From Deltaproteobacteria bacterium (GTDB taxonomy: Bacteria; Myxococcota_A; JAADFL01), in the NCBI GenBank assembly GCA_013152945.1, contig JAADFL010000183.1, positions 1 through 45,162 on the forward strand: a stretch of 45,162 bases of DNA. The letters are read 5' to 3'. Below the pieces are notes generated by a model. That model saw nothing but the letters and a program-made list of their open reading frames with translations, did no database searches and was not told the origin of the DNA. Below are positions 2,875 through 28,322 of the stretch, one piece after another; the stretch's first letter is position 1, and the number at the start of each line of letters is the position of its first letter. The position numbers and the translations under genes were made by a program.

Positions 2875-4017
2875 ATGGATTTTGCTTTTACAGACGAGCA
2901 AATGGCACTGAAGAAACAGGTGATAAGGTTCGCCGGCCATGAGATCGTGCCACGTTGCGCTGAACACGACCTCAAGAGCGAGTTCGATCGGAAGGCATTT
3001 AAACGCCTGGGTGAATTCGGTATTCTTGGGCTTCATTTTCCAGAGGAACTCGGCGGCAGCGGGGCTGATGTAGTCACCACGGTGCTCGTGGGTGAAGCAC
3101 TGGGCGAGGCCGGGGTGGACGGTGGCCTGGCGCTTTCATATGGAGCCCATACTTTTCTTTGTGCAGACACGATCTTTGCCCACGGCAATGACGAGCAACG
3201 CAGGCGTTATATTCCCAAGCTGGCCAGTGGAGAGCTTATAGGCTGCATGGGACTCACCGAGCCCGGAGCAGGCTCGGATGTTGCCGCCATGCGCACACGG
3301 GCCGTTAAAAAGGGCGATCGCTACGTGCTGAACGGTTCCAAGATATTTATCACCAACGGGCCGATCGCCGATGTTGCCGTGGTCTATGCCACGGTGAATC
3401 CGGCAGCCAAGCATGCGGGTATCAGCGCCTTCATCGTAGAGCGTGGGACCAAGGGATTCAGTGTAGGGGCTCCATTACACAAAATGGGCGTACGCACGTC
3501 GCAAACTTCGGAACTGTTCTTCGACGATTGCGAGATACCTGCCGAGAACCTGATAGGCTCGGAAGGCGAAGGTTTCCTGATGGCCATGCAGACCGTTGAG
3601 TGGGATCGCTCGGCTCTCGTAGCTCCCTTTGTGGGCGCCATGAGTTATGCCTTGAAAAAGTGCGCCCAATATGCAAGCGAGCGGCGTCAATTCGGCCGGC
3701 CAATAGCCGAGTTCCAGGCTGTTAAAGAAAAGCTTGCCAGGATGAAGATATTTATCGAAGCAGCCAAGGGCTTGATCTTCCGTATTGCATGGTGCAAGGA
3801 CCAGGGACGGCCCCTCAATCATCTCGAGGCTGCTGTTGCCAAGCTCTTTATCGGTGACTGGTCTCTTGAGCCGGCAAATGCAGCCATGTCCATAATGGGC
3901 GGATACGGGTACTGCCACGAGTACGAGATGGAACGCATGTTCAGAGATGGCCGGTTGGCACCAATAGGCGGCGGAACATCAGAAATTCAAAAGATGATCA
4001 TCTCAAAACTTATGTGA
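2875..4017 (+). CDS. Acyl-CoA dehydrogenase
   Basis: 380 residues, normal for the family. It would oxidise an acyl-CoA to the 2-enoyl-CoA with FAD, passing electrons to electron-transfer flavoprotein. ATG at 2875 with GGGAGG. Visible signatures: MGLTEPGAGSDVAAMRTRA in the middle domain, ERRQFGRPIAEFQAVKEKLA (FAD/dimer helix) and the C-terminal GGYGYxxEYxxERMFRD...GGGTSEIQ block. The usual MCAD-type catalytic Glu before GT is Gly366 here, as in isovaleryl-CoA dehydrogenase, whose base instead lies in the ER motif of an earlier helix. At that place this protein has W243-D244-R245, so Asp244 may act as base, or Glu242 beside it. Paired with the next gene. The nearby carboxylase operon suggests a branched or beta-substituted short acyl-CoA as substrate, but that is inference. 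Confidence 0.9.
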   Translation: MDFAFTDEQMALKKQVIRFAGHEIVPRCAEHDLKSEFDRKAFKRLGEFGILGLHFPEELGGSGADVVTTVLVGEALGEAGVDGGLALSYGAHTFLCADTIFAHGNDEQRRRYIPKLASGELIGCMGLTEPGAGSDVAAMRTRAVKKGDRYVLNGSKIFITNGPIADVAVVYATVNPAAKHAGISAFIVERGTKGFSVGAPLHKMGVRTSQTSELFFDDCEIPAENLIGSEGEGFLMAMQTVEWDRSALVAPFVGAMSYALKKCAQYASERRQFGRPIAEFQAVKEKLARMKIFIEAAKGLIFRIAWCKDQGRPLNHLEAAVAKLFIGDWSLEPANAAMSIMGGYGYCHEYEMERMFRDGRLAPIGGGTSEIQKMIISKLM

Positions 4018-4034
4018 AAACAAGGAATGGGAAA

Positions 4035-5156
4035 ATGGACTTTGATTTTAATAAGTTGGAAAGAGATCTGTTAAGTAAAATAGAGGAAATCATCAAGGAC
4101 GAGAGTTTACCCAACCCTGATATTTCAAGACATGCCAAACCGAACGAAATAGCCCTTGTCTTGCGGGCTTGGCTCGAACGCCTGGGGAATTCAGGTTTTT
4201 TAGCGGAGCCGGCCGGTCCGGGCAGGCTTGCGGCCCAACTGGAGCTTGCTCATCGATCGCCCTGGCTGGCCCTGGCTTCGGACATCGGTTCGCACGTGCT
4301 TTGCGATCTTATTTCAAGGCATGGCTCGGATGAACAAAAAAAGGCGTTTCTCGAGCCAATCCTGAAAGGCAAGAAAATTGCGGCCGTTGCAGCTTCTGAA
4401 ACACTTTCGGGATCGGTCCAAAAGACCATGAATACAATAGCCGTAAAAAACAGCGGCGGCTTTTTATTGACAGGCGCCAAGTCCACGGTGAGTCTGGGGC
4501 CAATGGCGGATATCATCGGTGTGCTCGGTCAAATCAAGGAGGGTATGGCCCTATTTCTTGTTGATAGAGGGCAGCCGGGTGTGGAAGCCGGAGATCCGCT
4601 TGAAACCCTTGGTTACAGGGAGCTGTGTACCTGTCCAATCGCACTGCACGATGTGATTATCGAGCCGGAAAGAATAATTGGTCCCTTTGATTCATCAAAG
4701 GTGGACCTTTTGCAGGAACTACGGACAGCTTGGGATCAAGTCATGGGCGCGGTTGCCTGCGGAACCATGCGATTATGCCTGGACCAGGCAAGGGCCGCCG
4801 CTGATGTAAAGCGGACACATGGCAAGCCTCCGGCCGGGTACCAAAGCGTGCGTTTCAGCCTGGCCGAGATGCTGACCCTTTCACAGACAGCCGAAATCCT
4901 TGTTTTACGTGCGGCCTGGGCAGCGGCTTCAGGCGATCCACAGGCCGCCTCACTTGGCCTTTGCGCCAAGGTTTTTGCCACAAAGAATGCCTGCGAGGTC
5001 GCAGACAAGGCATTGCAGATCATGGCCTCTGCAGGGTACACCAAGCCCAACCCGGTGGAGCGTGCATTGAGAGACGCCCGTTTGGGCACTATCATGGGAA
5101 ACACGTCGGAAGTAGCCCAAATGGCGATCGCAGACAATGTGCTCGAAAGGTTTTGA
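4035..5156 (+). CDS. Divergent acyl-CoA dehydrogenase-like protein (second subunit?)
   Basis: 373 residues from the ATG at 4035, which has AAGGA 8 bases upstream; a GTG at 4014 overlapping the previous stop would add 7 residues and has no ribosome binding site. The fold is clearly acyl-CoA dehydrogenase: a middle-domain block ASETLSG...GGFLLTGAKS, and a C-terminal ASAGYTKPNPVERALRDARLGTIMGNTSEVAQ block. Compared with its neighbour it is degraded: the TEPGAGSD loop is ASETLSGS, the RRQFG flavin motif is replaced by a KPPAGYQSV stretch, and the ER/DR catalytic site reads AWDQ. It may be a non-catalytic partner of a mixed oligomer with the upstream protein, as known for paired FadE proteins of actinobacterial steroid breakdown, or a dehydrogenase with unusual chemistry. 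Only 17 bases separate the two genes, so they are surely co-transcribed. Confidence 0.8.
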   Translation: MDFDFNKLERDLLSKIEEIIKDESLPNPDISRHAKPNEIALVLRAWLERLGNSGFLAEPAGPGRLAAQLELAHRSPWLALASDIGSHVLCDLISRHGSDEQKKAFLEPILKGKKIAAVAASETLSGSVQKTMNTIAVKNSGGFLLTGAKSTVSLGPMADIIGVLGQIKEGMALFLVDRGQPGVEAGDPLETLGYRELCTCPIALHDVIIEPERIIGPFDSSKVDLLQELRTAWDQVMGAVACGTMRLCLDQARAAADVKRTHGKPPAGYQSVRFSLAEMLTLSQTAEILVLRAAWAAASGDPQAASLGLCAKVFATKNACEVADKALQIMASAGYTKPNPVERALRDARLGTIMGNTSEVAQMAIADNVLERF

Positions 5157-5527: not shown

Positions 5528-6595
5528 CTAGTGAAGACTGAAATACAGCCCCATGGAAATGAAGAATGCGGCATATCCCAGGATGATGAACTTCAGTGTA
5601 AAGCGTGCGGCATTTTCCGTACCTTCATGTGCCAGGTAGACCTTATATGCAATAAGGTTTGCAAGCGAACCGAACAAGCTCCCGAATCCGCCTGCATTCG
5701 TGCCCCATAGCAGGGCGCTCCAGTTGTTCGTGAACTTCGCGAACAGCAGGGCTGCCGGAACATTGCTGATGAATTGACTTAACAGGGCGGAGAACAGGAA
5801 CACATGACCGGAACGGGATATCTCGGGCGCCAGCAGCATCTTCATATTTTCGGCCAGACCAAAGAAAAAGAAAAAGCTGAGCAAGAGTGAGTAATCGACA
5901 CCAAGGGATTTTCGGTCGAACAACAATGCAAAAAAGACAACAAGGAGAGCCGCCCACACCGGCAACACATGAAAAACGGTCAGGAGGACCACAAACAATA
6001 GCCCACTGTAGATATATGCCTTGTTATTGACTTCTTGCGTCGCCGGGTCTCTCCGTAGGCCGCTCTTGGCCTTGATCAGGAGCGATGCAGCTATCAGGAT
6101 GACGAGAAATGTCAATGAGAACGGGGCAATAGTTTCTATGAATGCAAGCGGATGAAGCTGGTAGAACCAGTAAAGGAACAGGTTTTGTGGATTGCCGATC
6201 GGGGTTAGCGCCGAACCGGCATTGGCTGCCAAGGCCTCGAGGATGACCAGGAGATCCTTGCGGCGAATATTGATCGAAAGAGTGAGCGGCACCATGATAA
6301 TCAGTGCGATGTCATTGGTAACAAGCATTGAGAGAAAGAACGTTGTCACCACCAACTTTAAGGGGACGACCGTTCCTTTTTCAATGGCCCTGGCTGCCTT
6401 TGATATCAATCCGCTTTGGTGAAGCCCTTTGACCGCGACAAAGAGTGTGAACAGGATGAACAGGACTTCTATCTCTTGGGTCGAGTATTTTGGTACATGA
6501 CCTATGTATAGCGATGTCAGGGTAAAGCCTACACCGGATGCGATTGCAAGCCATTTTTTCAAGATGAAATCAATGAATGCGCCTCTGGCTTTCAA
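5528..6595 (-). CDS. ArsB/NhaD-like (ion transporter superfamily) membrane transporter
   Basis: About 355 residues and roughly ten hydrophobic segments. The motif AANAGSALTPIGNPQN (around residues 120-135) is typical of the ion transporter superfamily that includes ArsB, NhaD and citrate-metal transporters: proteins that move anions or exchange Na+ for H+ at the inner membrane. A matching second half-site (LSQFISNVPAALL, then GTNAGGFGSLFGS) fits the two-fold repeat of that superfamily. Substrate cannot be told from sequence; no arsR, arsC or Na+-related neighbour is present. I prefer the TTG at 6595 because AAGGA lies 7 bases before it; the frame stays open to a TTG at 6655 that lacks a ribosome binding site. 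It is a single minus-strand gene, 222 bases after the stop of the gene behind it. Confidence 0.8.
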   Translation of the reverse strand: MKARGAFIDFILKKWLAIASGVGFTLTSLYIGHVPKYSTQEIEVLFILFTLFVAVKGLHQSGLISKAARAIEKGTVVPLKLVVTTFFLSMLVTNDIALIIMVPLTLSINIRRKDLLVILEALAANAGSALTPIGNPQNLFLYWFYQLHPLAFIETIAPFSLTFLVILIAASLLIKAKSGLRRDPATQEVNNKAYIYSGLLFVVLLTVFHVLPVWAALLVVFFALLFDRKSLGVDYSLLLSFFFFFGLAENMKMLLAPEISRSGHVFLFSALLSQFISNVPAALLFAKFTNNWSALLWGTNAGGFGSLFGSLANLIAYKVYLAHEGTENAARFTLKFIILGYAAFFISMGLYFSLH

Positions 6596-6725
6596 TAAGT
6601 TTTCCTTTGGCTGATACTGGGTAGATGCTTCAATCCACAAGGCTCCGCAATGCAAAGCTTATTCTAGTGGCGGTAGTATGCCTGTCAAGGCGAAAGGTTC
6701 GAGCTGCTTCTTTCCGGTTGCTGGG

Positions 6726-6817: not shown

Positions 6818-8635
6818 CTATGGTTCCACGATTTCAAGCCACTTGAACCAGATTGGATGCTGCTCTTTGTACCATAACAATACTTCGCGCAAAAGTTTTT
6901 GATGTTCAGGCGATATAACCTCGCCGGGTATACGTTCGAGATGCAACCGCAACCGGTTATTGCCAGTGTAATCAATGGCCTCGGAGCAGAGTGTCTGCAA
7001 CTCGTTGCGGATACGGCCCGAATCCGAAATAGTGACGGCCCGCCGCCGGAAATCCTCGCCATAGAAAAAACGAATCAGCAAGGGATTGAATATCAACCGT
7101 CCCTGATTCATGTTTTCCATAAGTCGTAATGTAAAGGTGACCAGCTTGTCGCCTCGAGGTGTCGCCATCCTCACGGTGACCCGGAACAATCCCTTCTCCA
7201 CCTCTTGCACACCGGGTGCGCCGGAGTAAGGGTCCGGAAGCATGTACCCGCACAGGGCCGCTACATCCCAGCTCTTTTCCGGAAAGAAATCGTTCACGCC
7301 GATCACCGGCTTACCGACCGGCAGCCCGGCTTCGTGTGCATCGAGAATTGCATTGCGATATGCTTCTGCATCAAGTTTTCCTGCATCATCACCGGCAAGC
7401 TCGCGAAGCCGCACTTCAAAGTCCTGTGCTCCGGGATCCAGTTGCATGACCTGCAATTCCTTGCGAAAGTCGAGCTTGAACCTGGATGTGAATACTGCCA
7501 GGGATGCATCGAGTCCGAGCATCGGACCCAGGCTTGCGGCCTGCATGGCTTCTGCTGACGCCGCGTAACCGTCGGTGATGAAAAGTTGGGTTCGATTGTC
7601 ACGCTCGAACGGCCCAACGAGATAGGTCGGTGCATATGTGCCTGACTCGGTGAAGGCCCGGCCTCCGCCGGGCAACTCCCAGCCATCTTCCACAAGATGC
7701 GCACCCACTGCCCGCCATTCATCCCATAACGAGCCAATACGCTCCAAGCGGCTCTTGCCGCCAAGAGTCCAGACATGCACATCTTCCGGCCTAATACCGG
7801 GGTAGGTCAACTTAATTGCCTCCATCACCTTGGACCGTGGCGTTCGATAGTCTACCAACAAGGAGCGGGCCGCTGCTTTCTCCACCACTTCTTTCGGTAA
7901 AAAAAGCGCGCCCATGTAACCTTCATACGGACGGTTGATGCCGAGAGGTTGATCGAAAAGGTGTAACACGGTCATTGCCCCTGTATCCGCCCCCTTGGCA
8001 AAGCGTGAAGTGTTCTCCAGGGTGTCGATGGCAGCGCCCCATACCGTTATTCCACTGGCCTTTATTTCGCGGTACCATTCTTCCCACCCGTATTCAGGAT
8101 CGTTGAGCATGCGCGTCACCCGCTGGTCGAGCCACTGGGCCACCTGTGGCCTTGCATATATGCGACCAAAACCAAGCTGTGGGTTTGAGCCCATCTCGGG
8201 TGTTTCACCTGCCTTTGGCATCAATCCTTCACCAAGGGAAACCATGATTGCATGGTTTTCCGGAAGCTGGCGCGAGGCAAACCAAAGGCTTTCGGCCAAG
8301 GCATATGCTGATATCGCATCTGCATCCTTCTTCACCTGGTTCAGGCCGGACTTGTCCAGGCCGGCACCCTCGCCGTAACGGCCGAAAAGTTGTGTGCCCA
8401 GGGCCGTTACACCGGCGCTCATCGCCATCAGCCGCTCCATACGTGCATCCAGGAACGATATGGTGCCGATTTCCCCAATCCTTGGTTCACCACGCAGCCA
8501 CTTGCAATCCACGTCCTCCAGCCATAGATGTAAACGGGCCAATATGGGTTGGGTATCAAATGCCCATTGTGCCAGCCGGTTACGCTTCTCAATCTTGGAT
8601 TCTTCTTTTCCGCTTTCCGCCCTTTTATCCGTCAT
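6818..8635 (-). CDS. Large soluble protein of unknown function
   Basis: 605 residues from the ATG at 8635; the frame is open to 8785, but residues upstream look non-coding. The Shine-Dalgarno is weak (AGGGGG at 12-17 bases). I do not recognise the family. There is no signal peptide and no membrane segment; the protein is rich in Trp, Arg and acidic residues. Segments that look conserved: WLDQRVTRMLNDPEYGWEEW (about 175), FDQPLGINRPYEGYMGALFLP (about 235), FITDGYAASAEAMQAASLGPMLGLDAS (about 370), GVNDFFPEKSWDVAALCGYM (about 460). Codon use matches its neighbours and the frame is intact over 1.8 kb, so it is a real gene. It is transcribed divergently from the carboxylase operon, 240 bases apart, and may share control with it. 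A metabolic role is only a guess from context. Confidence 0.75.
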   Translation of the reverse strand: MTDKRAESGKEESKIEKRNRLAQWAFDTQPILARLHLWLEDVDCKWLRGEPRIGEIGTISFLDARMERLMAMSAGVTALGTQLFGRYGEGAGLDKSGLNQVKKDADAISAYALAESLWFASRQLPENHAIMVSLGEGLMPKAGETPEMGSNPQLGFGRIYARPQVAQWLDQRVTRMLNDPEYGWEEWYREIKASGITVWGAAIDTLENTSRFAKGADTGAMTVLHLFDQPLGINRPYEGYMGALFLPKEVVEKAAARSLLVDYRTPRSKVMEAIKLTYPGIRPEDVHVWTLGGKSRLERIGSLWDEWRAVGAHLVEDGWELPGGGRAFTESGTYAPTYLVGPFERDNRTQLFITDGYAASAEAMQAASLGPMLGLDASLAVFTSRFKLDFRKELQVMQLDPGAQDFEVRLRELAGDDAGKLDAEAYRNAILDAHEAGLPVGKPVIGVNDFFPEKSWDVAALCGYMLPDPYSGAPGVQEVEKGLFRVTVRMATPRGDKLVTFTLRLMENMNQGRLIFNPLLIRFFYGEDFRRRAVTISDSGRIRNELQTLCSEAIDYTGNNRLRLHLERIPGEVISPEHQKLLREVLLWYKEQHPIWFKWLEIVEP

Positions 8636-8802
8636 ATCTATAATACCCCCTGGTGCTTTCACATGTCTCACCCTTGGGACATGGTTTCCGCCTGCACAAG
8701 CAAGCGAACAAAACCTATATATTTTTATTATCGCAAAATCGAGACTACTCAGGCAAGCCTGCCGAAGTTTGGAAATTGGTCCCAAGGTTTCAAACGGCCG
8801 GG

Positions 8803-8875: not shown

Positions 8876-10492
8876 ATGGAAATTATTGAAAGCCGCGTGG
8901 ACATCGAAGGAGACCAGTTCAAGGCAAACCGGGATCACATGCAGGCCTTGGTCGACGACCTGAACCGCGAACTTGTCCGGGCGCGAACAGATCGATCCGA
9001 AAAGGCACAAAAGCGCCATGCCGAACTCGGCAAGCTGCCGGTCGAGGAAAGAATCCAACTCTTGCTTGATCGTGATTCTCCGTTTCTCGAAATTGCGCCG
9101 CTTGCCGCAAAGGATATGTACGACGGCCGTGTATACGGCGCCGGCAGCATTGCGGGTATAGGTCTTGTTCATGGACGCGAGGTGCTGGTGACAGCCAATG
9201 ATGCACGCATCAAGGGAGGAACGATCTTTCCAATGGGCGTCAAGAAGACATTGCGCTGCCAGACAATCGCCATGGAGAACCGCCTGCCCATGATCAACCT
9301 GGTCGATTCGGGCGGAGCCTTTCTTCCCCTGCAGAGCGAGATATTTCCTGATGTGGATGACGGTGGCCGAATATTCTACAACCAAGCCGTGATGTCCAAG
9401 ATGGGAATCCCGCAGATTACGGCTGTCATGGGACTGTGCACTGCCGGGGCTGCATATATCCCGGCAATGTCGGACTATGTGGTTCACGTAAAGGGCACGG
9501 GCGCGATTTTTTTGGGCGGGCCGCCGCTGGTTCGCGCTGCAACCGGCGAAGAGGTTACGGCAGAGGAACTTGGCGGGGCCGAACTGCATTGCTCGGAATC
9601 AGGCGTCTCGGACTACCTGGCCGGGGACGACAGGGAAGCACTGGATATAATCAGGGACATTGTAGCGCTGCTGCCCCCGGCCCGCAAGGAGTGGCCATTG
9701 CTTCGCGAAGTGGAGGAACCGCTCTACGATCCGAAGGAAATTTACGGCGTAATTCCAAAATCGCTCGCCACGCCATACGACGTACGCGAGGTGATTGCCC
9801 GGATAGTCGACGGCAGCCGCTTCCACGAATTCAAGAAACAATACGGCCCGACTCTTGTTTGCGGCTTTGCATTCCTGCACGGCATGCAGGTCGGCATATT
9901 GGCGAACAACGGCGTGCTGTTTTCGGAGAGCGCTCTCAAAGCAACACAGTTCATCCAACTTTGCGACCGCGATAAGGTGCCCTTGATCTTCCTGCAAAAT
10001 ATCGCGGGGTACATTATCGGGAGCGAATACGAACGCGGTGGAATAACCAAGGACGGTCAAAAGATGGTTTGTGCTGTTGCAACCGCTACTGTTCCCAAGT
10101 TTACCGTCATAATGGGACAGTCTTTCGGGGCCGGAAACTACGGCATGTGTGGCAGGGCCTATTCACCGCGTTTCCTTTGGATGTGGCCGAATGCACGAAT
10201 AGGGGTGATGGGGCCACAGCAGGCTGCAAGCGTGCTCGTCTCCGTCAAGAACGAGCAACTGGCCCGCGAGGGCATGCCATTGCTTTCAGAAGACGATATC
10301 GAGGCCATAAAACAGCCTATCTTGCAGGCAGGCGAGGAACAGGGCAGTGCGTACCACTCTACGGCCAACCTCTGGGACGACGGTATTCTCGACCCTGCAA
10401 AGACAAGGGATGTCCTGGGCCTTGCCCTGTCCGCTGCGTTCTGTGCGCCTTTAAGATCAGGTGTTTTGGGTCACGGGTTGTTCAGGATGTGA
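8876..10492 (+). CDS. Acyl-CoA carboxylase, carboxyltransferase (beta) subunit, methylcrotonyl-CoA carboxylase type
   Basis: 538 residues, the usual length of MCC beta. The ATG at 8876 has GGAG 6 bases before it; a TTG at 8864 in frame lacks one. It should move carboxylate from carboxybiotin to an enoyl-CoA. The family signature is strong: [31 protein letters not shown], and near residues 414-450 [33 protein letters not shown], which is characteristic of 3-methylcrotonyl- and geranyl-CoA carboxylase beta subunits rather than propionyl- or acetyl-CoA carboxylases. First gene of the operon with biotin carboxylase, carrier, crotonase and BKACE. Substrate is inferred as methylcrotonyl-CoA or a related gamma-methyl enoyl-CoA. 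Confidence 0.9.
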
Positions 10493-10500
10493 GGAGGCCC

Positions 10501-12018
10501 ATGTTTTCCAAGATCCTGGTTGCAAACCGTGGTGAGATAGCGGTCAGAATATTTCGAACATGCCGTGAAATGGGTATTGCCACGGTTGCAGTATGTTCAG
10601 ATATCGATAAGAACGCCGTGCATACAGGTTATGCCGACCAGGTCGTTGTTCTTGGAGGCGACGAACCTGCAGTGACCTACCTGGACATCGGCAAGATAAT
10701 AAAGGCGGCAAAGGACACAGGGGCCGAAGCCCTGCATCCGGGTTACGGTTTCCTTGCCGAAAGCCCACGGTTGGCCGCTGCCTGCGAACAGGCCGGTATT
10801 GCCTTCATCGGCCCGCGGTCCGACGTGCTGGCTCTTGTGGGAGACAAGTTGGCGGCCCGCAGGCTCGCAAAGGAGGCGGGTGTACAGCCGACTGCCGGAA
10901 CAGAAACGCCGGGAGCCAATTACAAAGATCTTATCGGCCGGGCCGAGAAGCTCGGATATCCGGTGATGATAAAGGCTGCGGCCGGCGGGGGCGGAAAAGG
11001 CATGCGCAAGGTAGATGGGCCTGAAGCACTGGCCGAGGCGCTCGAGCTTGCAGCAGGCGAGGCTGAAAACGCATTCGGTGATTCCAGGCTTTTCCTGGAA
11101 CGCTTCATCGAGAACGCGCACCACGTGGAAGTGCAACTCCTTGCCGACCGGTACGGCAACATGGTGCATCTGTTCGAACGCGAGTGCTCCATACAAAGGC
11201 GTCACCAAAAGATAATCGAGGAAGGGCCTTCACCGGCCGTTGATGACGAATTACGTGGAAAGTTGTGCCGGGCCGCAATGTCCGTGGCCCGGGCCGCGGG
11301 TTATACCAATGCAGGCACGGTGGAATTTCTGCTTGATGAAAAGGGCGGCTTCAGCTTCATGGAAGTGAACGCCCGGCTCCAGGTGGAGCACCCGGTCACG
11401 GAATTAATAACCGGGGTCGACCTCGTTGAGCAGCAAATCCGCATAGCAGCAGGTGAAACGCTTTCGCTGTCGCAGCAGGATCTGTCGTGTCTCGGCCATG
11501 CAATCGAATGCCGCATTTATGCCGAGGACCCGGCCAATGACTTTCTGCCAAGCCCTGGAACCATAGAGTTGATGGAGGCTCCCCATGGTCCCGGCGTTCG
11601 ATTCGACAGCGGTATAATGCCCGGCAGCATCGTGCCGGTCGACTATGATCCGATACTTGCAAAGCTGATCGTATTTGCAGCCGGCCGGGATAAGGCTGCG
11701 GCCCGCATGGCCGGGGCGCTCACAGAGACATGTATCCTGGGAGTGAAGACTCCTGTCGAGATGATGATCGACATTGTCAAATCGAAAGAGTTCATGAGAG
11801 CAGAGACGAGCACGGATTTCATGGATCGATATTTCAAGAACTGGCGGCCGTCCGAAGAGCGTGGACGAATAGCCTTGCTCGGATGGCTGGCCGCGCAACT
11901 TGCAAATAGTGAACAAGAAGGCGGCAGGGAGCCGCCCGGAGGACCGGGAGGAGTTGGACACCGTGGTGATCCATGGCAAAAGCTCCGGAACTTCCGCCTT
12001 TGGGGACAAGAACAATAA
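10501..12018 (+). CDS. Biotin carboxylase subunit of acyl-CoA carboxylase (no carrier domain)
   Basis: 505 residues from the ATG at 10501, with GAGGAGG just upstream; the frame is open further 5-prime but that overlaps the carboxyltransferase gene. It carboxylates biotin using ATP and bicarbonate. Visible: N-terminal KILVANRGEIAVRIFRTCREMG, ATP-grasp glycine loop KAAAGGGGKGMR (about 158-169), the HVEVQLLAD...FERECSIQRRHQKIIEE block (about 205-240), EVNARLQVEHPVTE (about 286-299) and YAEDPANDFLPSPG. In typical MCC alpha (about 650-670 residues) the chain continues into the BT and biotin-carrier domains. Here it ends with an AALL...DPWQKLRNFRLW-like stretch, the point where the BT domain begins, at a TAA that overlaps the ATG of the next gene. 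So the alpha subunit is split into two genes. Confidence 0.9.
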   Translation: MFSKILVANRGEIAVRIFRTCREMGIATVAVCSDIDKNAVHTGYADQVVVLGGDEPAVTYLDIGKIIKAAKDTGAEALHPGYGFLAESPRLAAACEQAGIAFIGPRSDVLALVGDKLAARRLAKEAGVQPTAGTETPGANYKDLIGRAEKLGYPVMIKAAAGGGGKGMRKVDGPEALAEALELAAGEAENAFGDSRLFLERFIENAHHVEVQLLADRYGNMVHLFERECSIQRRHQKIIEEGPSPAVDDELRGKLCRAAMSVARAAGYTNAGTVEFLLDEKGGFSFMEVNARLQVEHPVTELITGVDLVEQQIRIAAGETLSLSQQDLSCLGHAIECRIYAEDPANDFLPSPGTIELMEAPHGPGVRFDSGIMPGSIVPVDYDPILAKLIVFAAGRDKAAARMAGALTETCILGVKTPVEMMIDIVKSKEFMRAETSTDFMDRYFKNWRPSEERGRIALLGWLAAQLANSEQEGGREPPGGPGGVGHRGDPWQKLRNFRLWGQEQ

Positions 12019-12548
12019 TGACCGACAATAGACGCGTGATGATGAACAATGCCGAGCACGAACTCGAGGTAATCGAGTACCTGCCGGGCAGGAAAGGCGG
12101 ACCGGCCGGACTCAAGGCCCGCATCGATGGAAAAGAATTTTATGCCGAAGTTCATACTGTGAATGATAACTGCCTGCGAATTGTGCTCGGCGATAAAACA
12201 GAACTCATAAGGTTCGTCAAGGCCGGCCGTAATTACTGGATTTTCAATGGCGGGAACCAGGCATTAATAGAAACGCTTGCGGGCAGGCCGGCATCTTTCG
12301 GGCCGGCCGGAGACGTCACCCCACCTATGCCGGCAGTCGTGGCCAGGTTGCTTGTCGAACGCGGGCAACATGTCGAACGCGGACAGGCCATGGTGGTGGT
12401 TTCGGCGATGAAGATGGAAACCACGCTGGCAGCGCCCAGAGACGGTGTGGTTACGGCCGTTAATATCGCCGAGGGCGACAAGGTTTCCCCGGGACAAATC
12501 CTGATTGAGGTAGAGCCTGGCGGGGAGGATCATGATGGCAATGGATGA
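12018..12548 (+). CDS. Biotin carboxyl carrier protein with BT-like N-terminal part
   Basis: 176 residues from the ATG at 12018, which overlaps the upstream stop (TAATGA). An in-frame ATG at 11973 would add 15 residues. The C-terminal domain (about 95-170) is a biotinyl domain with the AMKM motif at residues 130-133, Lys132 being the biotinylated lysine, followed by a second half with EGDKVSPGQILIEV. Residues 8-80 look like the beta-stranded BT region that in MCC alpha joins the carboxylase to the carrier. The protein therefore supplies what the preceding biotin carboxylase lacks, and both should be needed for one holoenzyme with the MCC-type beta subunit. The stop lies inside the start region of the crotonase gene, so translation is probably coupled along the operon. 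Confidence 0.88.
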   Translation: MTDNRRVMMNNAEHELEVIEYLPGRKGGPAGLKARIDGKEFYAEVHTVNDNCLRIVLGDKTELIRFVKAGRNYWIFNGGNQALIETLAGRPASFGPAGDVTPPMPAVVARLLVERGQHVERGQAMVVVSAMKMETTLAAPRDGVVTAVNIAEGDKVSPGQILIEVEPGGEDHDGNG

Positions 12549-13317
12549 GCAGAAACTTGTCGTGGAGCGCGACAGGCATGTAGTCACGTTGACTATAAAT
12601 CGGAAAGAACGGCGAAACGCACTGGACGCCGAGGTAACCGTTTCCATGATAGAGGCTCTCGAAGATGCGGACAGGGACCGGGACGTGCGCCTGGTATGCA
12701 TTACAGGAGCAGGAGAAAAGGCATTTTGTTCGGGCGGCGACCTTGCCTCTGGAATGACCGCAGGGCATGGCAAAAAAAGCGTGATTGAGTTGTTCGGAGA
12801 CCTGATGCTCTGCATGGAATCAATGCAAACGCCTTTGCTGGCACGTGTAGCGGGCGCTTGCCTCGGCGGCGGGCTGGGGCTTGCGCTTTCGTGCGATATG
12901 GTCATTGCCTGTGACGATGTTGTCTTTGGCACACCTGAAGTCCGCGCCGGAATGTTCCCCATGATCATTGCGCCGCTTGTAATCAAGCATGCAGGACCGA
13001 AACGCGCCATGGACATGATCTTCCGCGGCCGAAAGGTGCCTGCAATGGAAGCCATGCAAATGGGGTTCGTAAACAAGGTCGTTGCCCGCGCTGAATTGGA
13101 CGATGCAGTGGCTGAAACAACGGCCGACATCATGGCCGGTTCACCGTCTGCCATGAGAATAGGCAGGAGGGCATTGGCAAAAATACGCGGCATGCCGAGC
13201 GAGCAGGCCACCAGGGAACTTGCCCGGGCCCTGATGGATGTTATAGCAAGCGAGGATGCAGCAGAAGGAATCCAGGCATTTTTACAAAAACGCAAACCAA
13301 CCTGGAAAGGAAGGTGA
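12535..13317 (+). CDS. Enoyl-CoA hydratase/isomerase (crotonase) family protein
   Basis: 260 residues from the second of two ATG codons (12532 or 12535); GGAGG is 6 bases from the second. The gene overlaps the carrier gene. Crotonase hallmarks: AFCSGGDL (oxyanion hole), CLGGGLGLALSCDMVIA, VVFGTPEVRAGMFPM. The residue matching the first catalytic Glu of rat enoyl-CoA hydratase (Glu144) is Gly115 here, while the second (Glu164) is present as Glu135. Single-Glu crotonases are known, so this may be a hydratase with altered mechanism, an isomerase or a C-C lyase. In the leucine route this place in the operon is taken by methylglutaconyl-CoA hydratase, which has both Glu residues; hence hydration of a glutaconyl-type CoA is plausible but not shown. 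Confidence 0.85.
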   Translation: MAMDEQKLVVERDRHVVTLTINRKERRNALDAEVTVSMIEALEDADRDRDVRLVCITGAGEKAFCSGGDLASGMTAGHGKKSVIELFGDLMLCMESMQTPLLARVAGACLGGGLGLALSCDMVIACDDVVFGTPEVRAGMFPMIIAPLVIKHAGPKRAMDMIFRGRKVPAMEAMQMGFVNKVVARAELDDAVAETTADIMAGSPSAMRIGRRALAKIRGMPSEQATRELARALMDVIASEDAAEGIQAFLQKRKPTWKGR

Positions 13318-13323
13318 GGGAAT

Positions 13324-14214
13324 ATGTCGATCCTGCCGGTTGCGTCTCATCGCGATCCCGAGAGGCCTTGCATAATTACTTGTGCACTTAGTGGCGTTGT
13401 TGCCAACCGTGACCAGTGCCCTGCAATTCCATATACTCCCGAAGAATATGCAGAAGAAGCCAGAAGGGCGTACGAAGCAGGGGCCGCAGTGGTGCATATA
13501 CATGCAAGGGATCCTGCGGACGGCTCACCGAGCTACAATGTGGGGCATTACCGGGCAATCCGGGATGCCATAGTAGATGCCTGCCCGGTCGTTATAAACT
13601 TTTCGACCGGAGCGGTTGGTATTGGCAGCGAGGAAAAGATTGCACCGGTACGTGAAATCCGGCCGGCCCTGGCTGCGTTGAACATGGGCTCGATGAATTA
13701 TGCCAAGTACCACCAGGGAAAAAAGAGTTTCGTGTTCGAGTTTGTTTTTCCAAACCCGTTTTCCGAGATAAAAATGCTGATCGAGACCATGAACCGGGTG
13801 AATTCAAAACCGGAAATGGAATGTTTCGATGCCGGCCACGTGGCCAATTCGTACCCGTTAATAGACATGGGATTGCTTGAGCCGCCTTTCCAGTACTCGT
13901 TGATACTGGGAGTCACAGGGGGGATAGCACCGACCATTGACTCGTTGCTGCACATGTCGTCGTGCGTACCGCAAAACAGCGAGTGGGAAGTAATCGGAGT
14001 ATCACACGACCAGTGGCGCCTGGTGGCGGGCGCAATAGCCATGGGAGGCAATATCAGGGTCGGACTGGAAGACAATTTCTACGTGCAACCCGGCCGCATG
14101 GCAAGGTCGAACGGCGAACTCGTTGAAAAGGCGGCCCGCATGGTGAGAGACCAGGGCCGCGAAACGGCAACAGCCGAAGAATGCCGCAAACGCCTGGAGC
14201 TGGTGAACAGGTAA
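13324..14214 (+). CDS. Beta-keto acid cleavage enzyme (BKACE, DUF849)
   Basis: 296 residues, normal for the family. BKACE enzymes are Zn-dependent and split a beta-keto acid using acetyl-CoA to give acetoacetate plus a new acyl-CoA; the founding member is the 3-keto-5-aminohexanoate cleavage enzyme of lysine fermentation. The metal motif is present: VHIHARDP gives His58 and His60, and the RVGLEDN loop gives Glu249. Other family blocks: N-terminal IITCALSGVVANRDQCPAIPYTPEE, the INFSTGA strand, NMGSMNYA and MGGNIRVGLEDN. Last gene of the carboxylase operon, 6 bases after the crotonase stop. Lysine-fermentation partners (kamA, kdd, kal) are absent here, so its substrate is likely the product of the preceding carboxylase/hydratase steps. 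It occupies the place of HMG-CoA lyase. Confidence 0.9.
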   Translation: MSILPVASHRDPERPCIITCALSGVVANRDQCPAIPYTPEEYAEEARRAYEAGAAVVHIHARDPADGSPSYNVGHYRAIRDAIVDACPVVINFSTGAVGIGSEEKIAPVREIRPALAALNMGSMNYAKYHQGKKSFVFEFVFPNPFSEIKMLIETMNRVNSKPEMECFDAGHVANSYPLIDMGLLEPPFQYSLILGVTGGIAPTIDSLLHMSSCVPQNSEWEVIGVSHDQWRLVAGAIAMGGNIRVGLEDNFYVQPGRMARSNGELVEKAARMVRDQGRETATAEECRKRLELVNR

Positions 14215-14513: not shown

Positions 14514-14553
14514 AAGGAACCAAACTCTGGGTCGCAGTAGGGCGGCATTCCAG

Positions 14554-14578
14554 GGCGGGCTTTTAGGCCCGCCTTTTT
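14554..14578 (+). terminator. Intrinsic terminator in the rimP leader (possible attenuator)
   Basis: Perfect 7-bp stem GGCGGGC (14554-14560) / GCCCGCC (14567-14573), six-base loop, then five T. It sits between the promoter at 14485 and the rimP ribosome binding site (GGAG at about 14582), only about 16 bases before the start codon. It could end read-through from upstream, but its place downstream of a good promoter suggests regulated termination of the operon that encodes NusA itself. GGGCGG at 14540-14545 could pair with the right arm as a partial competitor. Confidence 0.75.
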
Positions 14579-27050: not shown

Positions 27051-28322
27051 ATGGCACTCGTTCCCCCACATGGAAAGGAAAAGAAGCTCATGCCTCTCAT
27101 GTTGGAAGGCGCGGCACTGGAAGACGAGAGGAAAAGGGCCGAGACCCTTAAGAAGGTATCCATGACCAGCAGGGAGACTTCCGATCTCCTGATGATGGGC
27201 ATGGGCGCTTTCACCCCGCTCAAAGGCTTCATGGGCTACGAGGACTGGAAGGGAGTCTGCGATAATTTTCTGATGAATGACGGCACCTTTTGGCCCATAC
27301 CAATCACGCTTTCAGCCGACAAGGATGTTGCCGACAGCATTGGTGACGGCGAAGAGGTTGCATTGGTGGATGAGGAAACAGGCAAGACGATCGCCACCAT
27401 GAAGGTCACGGAGAAGTACACAATAGATAAGGTCCACGAATGCAAGCAGGTCTTTCGTACCGATGATCGTGAACACCCCGGGGTAGCCAAGGTAATGGCG
27501 CAAAAGGACATCAACCTGGCGGGACCTGTAAAGGTGCTTTCAGAAAGCTACTATCCGGAAATGTTCAAGGACATCTACCAGCGGCCTGCAGAGGCAAGAA
27601 AGATCTTCGAAGAGCGGGGCTGGCATACGGTGGCAGCGCTCCAGCTTCGCAACCCCATGCACAATTCCCATGCGTACCTGGCTTGGATCGGCATCGAGGT
27701 ATGTGACGGCGTATACATTCACCAATTGGTCGGCAAACTCAAGCCCGGTGATATACCTGCAGACGTCCGGGTCAAGTGCATCAATGCGCTGGTAGACAAC
27801 TATTTCCGCAAAGAAAGAGTAGTGCAGGGCGGGTACCCGATGGAGATGCGGTACGCAGGCCCCAGAGAGGCCCTGCTGCATGCAGTGTTCAGGCAAAATT
27901 TCGGATGCAGCCACCTAATCGTGGGTCGTGACCATGCTGGCGTAGGCGATTACTATGGTCCGTTCGATGCACAGAGAATCTTCCATGACATCCCTGACGG
28001 CTCTTTGGCCATACAACCTCTGAACATCGACTGGACCTTCTATTGCTACGAGTGCGGCACTATGGCCTCGATGAAGACCTGTCCGCACGAGGAAAAAGCG
28101 GTCATCGACGAGCAGGGTAACCATGTTTCCGGAGCAAGGCTGCTCCTGTCAGGCACCATGCTTCGCAAGATGCTCAGTGAGAACAAGCCGGTGCCCAAGG
28201 AGTTTTCAAAACCGGAAGTCGTGGATATCCTGAAAAAGTACTACGCAGGTCTCACGGATAAGGTGGAGATCAAACTGCACCAGGCCGCTCTTGGAATGGA
28301 TGCGGACAAGTCCAAGAAATAG
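27051..28322 (+). CDS. sat: Sulfate adenylyltransferase (ATP sulfurylase)
   Basis: 423 residues, the monofunctional Sat type of sulfur-oxidising and sulfate-reducing prokaryotes, not the CysDN pair. It makes adenosine 5-prime-phosphosulfate and pyrophosphate from ATP and sulfate, reversibly. Active-site motifs: [10 protein letters not shown] (198-207, the QxRNPxHxxH motif) and GRDHAG (292-297). A zinc knuckle YCYECG...TCPH gives Cys332, Cys335, Cys344 and His346, as in prokaryotic Sat structures with bound zinc. The C-terminal helical part ([27 protein letters not shown]) is normal, and there is no APS-kinase domain. ATG at 27051 with AAAGGAG. No aprAB, qmo, dsr or cys genes are nearby, so assimilation or dissimilation cannot be decided here. 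Confidence 0.95.

Follow-up and report, generated by a model that had tools for sequence, protein, structure and literature searches.

A conserved gamma-carboxylase operon with a BKACE (DUF849) gene in the lyase position and a predicted branched acyl-CoA substrate

Results

We analyzed a contig of 45,162 nucleotides from a draft genome of a deltaproteobacterium (GenBank assembly GCA_013152945.1, contig JAADFL010000183.1), hereafter called the window, which carries on its forward strand a carboxylase gene cluster ending in a gene of the BKACE (DUF849) family. A preliminary description, made from the sequence alone, had placed five genes in tandem at positions 8876-14214, and Pfam and NCBIfam searches together with the inspection of start codons confirmed their families and coordinates. 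The first gene encodes the carboxyltransferase (CT) subunit of a gamma-carboxylase of the methylcrotonyl-CoA carboxylase (MCC) lineage (8876..10492; PF01039, 483 bits). It is followed by genes of the biotin carboxylase (BC) subunit (10501..12018; Pfam/NCBIfam), the biotin carboxyl carrier protein (BCCP, 12018..12548; Pfam Biotin_lipoyl, with a SAMKM biotin motif), a crotonase-family hydratase (ECH, 12532..13317; PF00378) and the BKACE (13324..14214; PF05853, 313 bits), which occupies the lyase position. The ATG start codons of CT at 8876 and BC at 10501 were read directly; the BCCP open reading frame (ORF) is open from 11973 and probably starts at 12018, overlapping the BC stop codon, and the AMKM part of its biotin motif was present in all fetched carrier proteins. 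Upstream on the same strand lie the gene of an acyl-CoA dehydrogenase, ACADa (2875..4017; assigned from Pfam, PDB alignments and 13 operon sequences), and that of its divergent paralogue ACADb (4014..5156; Pfam and bit scores among relatives), which overlap by 4 bp. The two dehydrogenase genes noticed earlier 3.7 kb upstream of CT are thus present, while the gap itself is an interruption, because it is filled by two opposite-strand genes, one for a CitMHS-like transporter (5528-6655) and the other a 655-aa ORF that matches no Pfam or NCBIfam model (6818-8785), and because ACADa and ACADb of the relatives stand immediately 5′ of CT, at distances between about 0 and 640 bp.

The conservation of the gene order was followed in 68 loci obtained with the window BKACE as the scan query. 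Among these loci the complete order ACADa-ACADb-CT-BC-BCCP-ECH-BKACE was found in 11 that were fetched, and CT, BC, ECH and BKACE occurred together in 15 fetched loci. The carriers are assigned to Deltaproteobacteria, Desulfobacterales, Desulfobacteraceae, Desulfomonilaceae, Desulfarculus and Myxococcales. In nearly all loci of the clade the crotonase gene adjoins the BKACE gene, mostly with tight spacing. In an Acidobacteria locus (L089), which has the CT, BC, carrier and BKACE genes, additional genes separate CT from BC, and BKACE is not preceded by a crotonase. Anaeromyxobacter oryzae (L058, 5286-10867) has the order ACADs-CT-ECH-BKACE, with neither BC nor carrier between CT and crotonase, so that both subunits would have to be supplied by genes at another place. 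A TetR gene lies upstream of the operon in several relatives, and genes of MaoC, a third ACAD, a Liv-type transporter and an AMP-binding acyl-CoA ligase lie downstream in some. The gene order recurs far beyond chance, and the cluster is a real, conserved operon.

A PDB search placed the window CT nearest to MCC-type chains, and the window genome, a 4.84-Mb draft which is 94% complete, encodes no other CT of MCC type. As previously described, one pocket position, which determines the size of the substrate, is occupied by Phe191 in MCC and by glycine in geranyl-CoA carboxylase (GCC), which also has a three-residue deletion, and the F191G substitution made MCC active on geranyl-CoA and essentially inactive on 3-methylcrotonyl-CoA (PMC4673880). 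The numbering is that of human MCCB, and the corresponding position of the Pseudomonas aeruginosa protein is 163. The alignment showed that the window CT has glycine at the Phe191 position (codon 9362-9364, within a DDGG motif), as do all 20 distinct CTs of the operon clade, while each of the 14 MCC-type CTs compared has phenylalanine, the human and Pseudomonas reference enzymes among them. Throughout the operon clade the His190-Phe191 pair of MCC is replaced by Asp-Gly. With this glycine, a loop of MCC length and a place in the tree beside MCC, the operon CT fits the canonical form of neither MCC nor GCC, and its pocket looks opened for a molecule bulkier than the leucine intermediate.

The residue at this position was compared with the cleavage gene encoded within 8 kb in a survey of 45 CTs from 57 genomes of the same phylum. 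A BKACE gene was near 14 of the 27 Gly-type CTs and an HMG-CoA lyase gene near none, while the 11 Phe-type CTs had HMG-CoA lyase nearby in five cases and BKACE in none. Fisher tests of CT residue against neighbor gave p = 0.0026 for BKACE and p = 0.0009 for HMG-CoA lyase, values which are descriptive only, the counts being phylogenetically non-independent. Several genomes, for example G003, G014, G019, G024 and G053, encode both kinds of CT. In the tree, the BKACEs near Gly-type CTs form two clades with a long branch between them, and a second, distantly related BKACE clade likewise adjoins Gly-type gamma-carboxylases. These data suggest a provisional sequence rule, in which the closed Phe pocket would pair with HMG-CoA lyase and the open Gly pocket often with BKACE. 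Beside a crotonase and another type of CT, a third group of BKACEs (about 55% identical) was seen at L129 3495-6754 and L131 2615-5890; the CT in these loci is without the MCC-type loop.

The AlphaFold2 model of the window BKACE (pLDDT 90.7) has a TIM barrel fold and matches solved DUF849 members with Z of about 38; the 50 listed matches of this fold search did not include HMG-CoA lyase, which in itself proves nothing. The zinc ligands H58, H60 and E249, the base E166, and also R245 and D250 are invariant in 25 aligned BKACE homologues, the roles of the zinc ligands and of the catalytic glutamate being taken from previous studies (PMC12871164, PMC11961710). By family, fold and catalytic residues the window protein is a BKACE, and its predicted activity is that of the family, in which a beta-keto acid and acetyl-CoA are converted to acetoacetate and an acyl-CoA two carbons shorter (PMC12871164). 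The preliminary description had left room for a known subgroup such as Kce; the protein scored 258 bits against the cut-off of 382 of the Kce lysine-fermentation model (NF052387) and 184 against 350 of the NCBIfam model for 3-oxoadipate BKACE, and it is below every characterized NCBIfam equivalog cut-off that it matches, falling far short of those for Kce and two other characterized BKACEs. The change of Tyr173 of PdKce to Phe168 was considered as a mark of new chemistry and rejected, since phenylalanine also occurs in the other fetched DUF849 homologues, including those of Bacillus.

HMG-CoA lyase was searched for with the model NF004283 (cut-off 246 bits) in 17 distinct operon-bearing genomes. 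No such lyase is encoded with the carboxylase in the window operon, and none scored above the cut-off in the window genome, which has two distant relatives of 126 and 135 bits. The recurrence of the gene order in genomes lacking this enzyme, which had been proposed as a check, held in part, as an above-cut-off lyase was present in seven of the 17 genomes and not in the other 10, where single absences are weak because most of these genomes are drafts. The genome G007 contains, besides the operon, a separate cluster of a CT (60% identical), crotonase, BC and HMG-CoA lyase, and in A. oryzae a separate HMG-CoA lyase adjoins an ACAD and a CT of another type (40% identical); hence, the operon in these two genomes is not simply replacing the lyase. 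Both Mcc and HmgL were previously found to be made by isovalerate-adapted cells of Desulfococcus multivorans (PMC5109826). The AtuA lyase (PF07287) gave no match in the 17 genomes, and the control genomes gave none either. A further cluster of the window genome (G000:C122; L122 1000-8622) contains two thiolase-like genes, a 3-hydroxybutyryl-CoA-dehydrogenase-like gene, a gene of a 434-aa HMG-CoA-lyase-like protein and a CT, the last being a 579-aa, decarboxylase-alpha-like protein.

In ACADa the EWDRS motif is invariant and places aspartate at the position of the catalytic base of isovaleryl-CoA dehydrogenase (PDB alignments; 13 operon sequences), and GGGTS is found where the MCAD-type glutamate would stand. 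The catalytic region of ACADb is poorly conserved, and its relatives score 110-222 bits versus 490-680 bits for ACADa; ACADb is probably a partner subunit. The operon crotonase has glycine at the Glu144 site and keeps the Glu164 site, as in the LiuC-type pattern, and the same combination is present in the crotonase (L111) of the cluster of MCC and HMG-CoA lyase in G007.

Elsewhere in the window, a terminator-like hairpin of 10 pairs with a T-run is located between the operon and rimP on the forward strand (14552..14575; a consensus match only). The reverse strand at 786-2723 encodes a putative secreted protein that contains a long tract of Asp-Thr repeats and segments rich in Cys, with an antistasin-like match among the latter, and an ATP sulfurylase gene (PF01747 with PUA_2) is located at 27051-28322.

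Discussion

The gene order resembles that of the Liu operon up to the lyase, with a CT sister to MCC and a crotonase with the Glu144-less signature also seen in the hydratase of the G007 cluster, while it differs in the absence of HMG-CoA lyase, in glycine instead of Phe191, and in the separate HMG-CoA lyase clusters of some carrier genomes. With the Atu pathway (AtuD, AtuC/F, AtuE, AtuA/LiuE, AtuH, AtuR; PMC4847356, PMC4097962) the operon shares a dehydrogenase, a gamma-carboxylase with the pocket glycine and a crotonase hydratase, and some relatives also share a TetR regulator and an acyl-CoA ligase. In contrast to Atu, its CT is of a lineage sister to MCC with the MCC loop length, the biotin carrier is encoded on its own, BKACE replaces AtuA/LiuE, and there are two dehydrogenase genes. 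The BKACE itself has the TIM-barrel fold, zinc ligands, base glutamate, arginine and aspartate of Kce, PdKce/BKACE15, BsfD and the related ObcA, while it differs from them in the phenylalanine at PdKce Tyr173, in its sub-cut-off scores and in having a gamma-carboxylase as the genomic partner. This comparison suggests that the operon belongs with Liu and Atu as a variant in which BKACE has taken the place of the lyase, its substrate and reactions being predicted from sequence.

The earlier proposal that the cluster follows the logic of leucine and isovalerate degradation thus agrees with the order of dehydrogenation, carboxylation, hydration and cleavage, and with the gene architecture, while its substrate is probably not leucine, because of the glycine at the Phe191 site and of the separate HMG-CoA lyase clusters in some carriers, such as the MCC cluster of G007. 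The statement that by known chemistry BKACE is no simple stand-in for HMG-CoA lyase stands, and of the two branches then offered, another substrate yielding a beta-keto acid is the better one; the retro-aldol logic for it is supplied here. With about even confidence, we propose that the substrate of the operon is a beta-methyl-branched acyl-CoA of greater bulk than isovaleryl-CoA, which would be degraded by a route of the Atu/Liu type. ACADa and ACADb would convert the acyl-CoA to a 2-enoyl-CoA, CT, BC and BCCP would carboxylate the beta-methyl (gamma) carbon, and the crotonase would hydrate the carboxylated product to a 3-hydroxy-3-alkylglutaryl-CoA. These steps would parallel the beta-methyl carboxylation, hydration and cleavage known from Atu (PMC4847356, PMC4097962). 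Retro-aldol cleavage would then give R-CO-CH2-COO- and acetyl-CoA. As these are the two substrates of BKACE, the enzyme fits after such a cleavage, and it would convert them to R-CO-SCoA and acetoacetate, so that the branch would be gone and the remaining chain would still be CoA-activated. On chemical grounds BKACE would make sense only for a larger R, because with R = methyl the same two compounds would be regenerated, and this argument agrees with the Gly pocket. The candidate agents of the retro-aldol step are a crotonase with hydratase-lyase activity, BKACE itself, or an HMG-CoA-lyase-like protein encoded elsewhere; hydroxycinnamoyl-CoA hydratase-lyase is a precedent for such a reaction in the crotonase family. 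The TetR, acyl-CoA ligase and Liv-type transporter genes in some relatives, which are comparable to AtuR and AtuH, are also counted in favor of the route for a bulkier substrate, as are the conserved gene order, the crotonase signature shared with the G007 hydratase, the retained catalytic residues of BKACE, the second BKACE clade beside Gly-type gamma-carboxylases, and the production of Mcc and HmgL by D. multivorans on isovalerate.

Several observations weigh against this proposal. In the published Atu schemes acetate is released and CoA stays on the keto acid, which weakens the assumed mode of cleavage (PMC4847356, PMC4097962). The window CT keeps the MCC-length loop without the three-residue deletion of GCC, a deletion of a type seen in other CTs of the relatives; in the tree the operon clade is sister to MCC and outside the geranyl-type group; and other residues could refill the Gly pocket. 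The tree gives one independent Phe/Gly contrast for the association of glycine with BKACE, because of which the relation between residue and neighbor is a pattern, not a test. Additionally, none of the kinds of TetR, ligase and transporter genes seen in relatives stands next to the window copy, the beta subunit of 3-oxoacid CoA-transferase, which bears on the fate of acetoacetate, was above cut-off in only three of the 17 operon genomes, and four of them (G029, G058, G060 and G071) have no HMG-CoA-lyase-like match above 50 bits, leaving the retro-aldol step without an assigned enzyme.

For this last step a tentative, less probable version of the proposal is that BKACE is bifunctional, combining in one active site a lyase for 3-hydroxy-3-alkylglutaryl-CoA and a CoA-preserving acyl transferase. 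The zinc site would hold the carboxylate and the tertiary hydroxyl and carry out the retro-aldol reaction, and the enzyme-bound beta-keto acid and acetyl-CoA would already be the substrate pair for the normal reaction of the family. If true, this would allow beta-methyl branch removal in genomes without HMG-CoA lyase.

It is unlikely that the operon is instead a non-canonical leucine/isovalerate pathway, in which the carboxylase would be an MCC and the DUF849 protein would have become an HMG-CoA lyase, giving acetyl-CoA and acetoacetate by a zinc-assisted retro-aldol reaction. Such a pathway would be consistent with the position of the operon CT as sister to MCC and as the sole MCC-type CT of the window genome, with the lack of an above-cut-off HMG-CoA lyase in that genome and in nine of the 16 other operon genomes, and with the existence of DUF849 members with other chemistry (BsfD, cis-epoxysuccinate hydrolase). 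On the other hand, every CT of the clade has glycine at the Phe191 site, additional lyase genes accompany MCC in G007 and a CT and ACAD in A. oryzae, and the presence of ligase and transporter genes beside the operon of several relatives suggests an acid that is taken up from outside. Still more doubtful is a substrate that is small or polar, such as a functionalized branched acyl-CoA or one of crotonyl/glutaconyl type, in which case BKACE would use a 3-oxo-dicarboxylate or a similar compound. The clade-wide exchange of His190-Phe191 for the invariant Asp-Gly pair, which would contact a polar group, and the groups for negatively charged substrates and beta-ketoadipate among the seven published BKACE active-site groups (PMC4922564) argue for it, while the recurrent neighbors identified include no 3-hydroxyacyl-CoA dehydrogenase, which would be needed to turn a 3-hydroxyglutaryl-type intermediate into a beta-keto acid, and the score with the 3-oxoadipate model is low. 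Even though the window genome encodes the two distant HMG-CoA-lyase-like proteins (126 and 135 bits versus 246), it is improbable that BKACE is just a genomic neighbor and that an unlinked protein of this kind, for example on C122 or C120, completes the pathway, given the mostly tight adjacency of crotonase and BKACE in nearly all clade loci, the second BKACE clade linked to gamma-carboxylases, and the four operon genomes without any lyase-like match above 50 bits.

No description of the association between a gamma-carboxylase and BKACE was found in the open-licence literature, subscription papers being outside this search. The operon provides a conserved genomic context and a predicted substrate class for a BKACE, a member of a family whose proteins are hard to assign. 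If the proposed route for a bulkier substrate is right, it would add a CoA-preserving way of removing beta-methyl branches, which bears on how isoprenoid acids and other acids with branches are degraded by Myxococcota, Desulfobacterota and their relatives.

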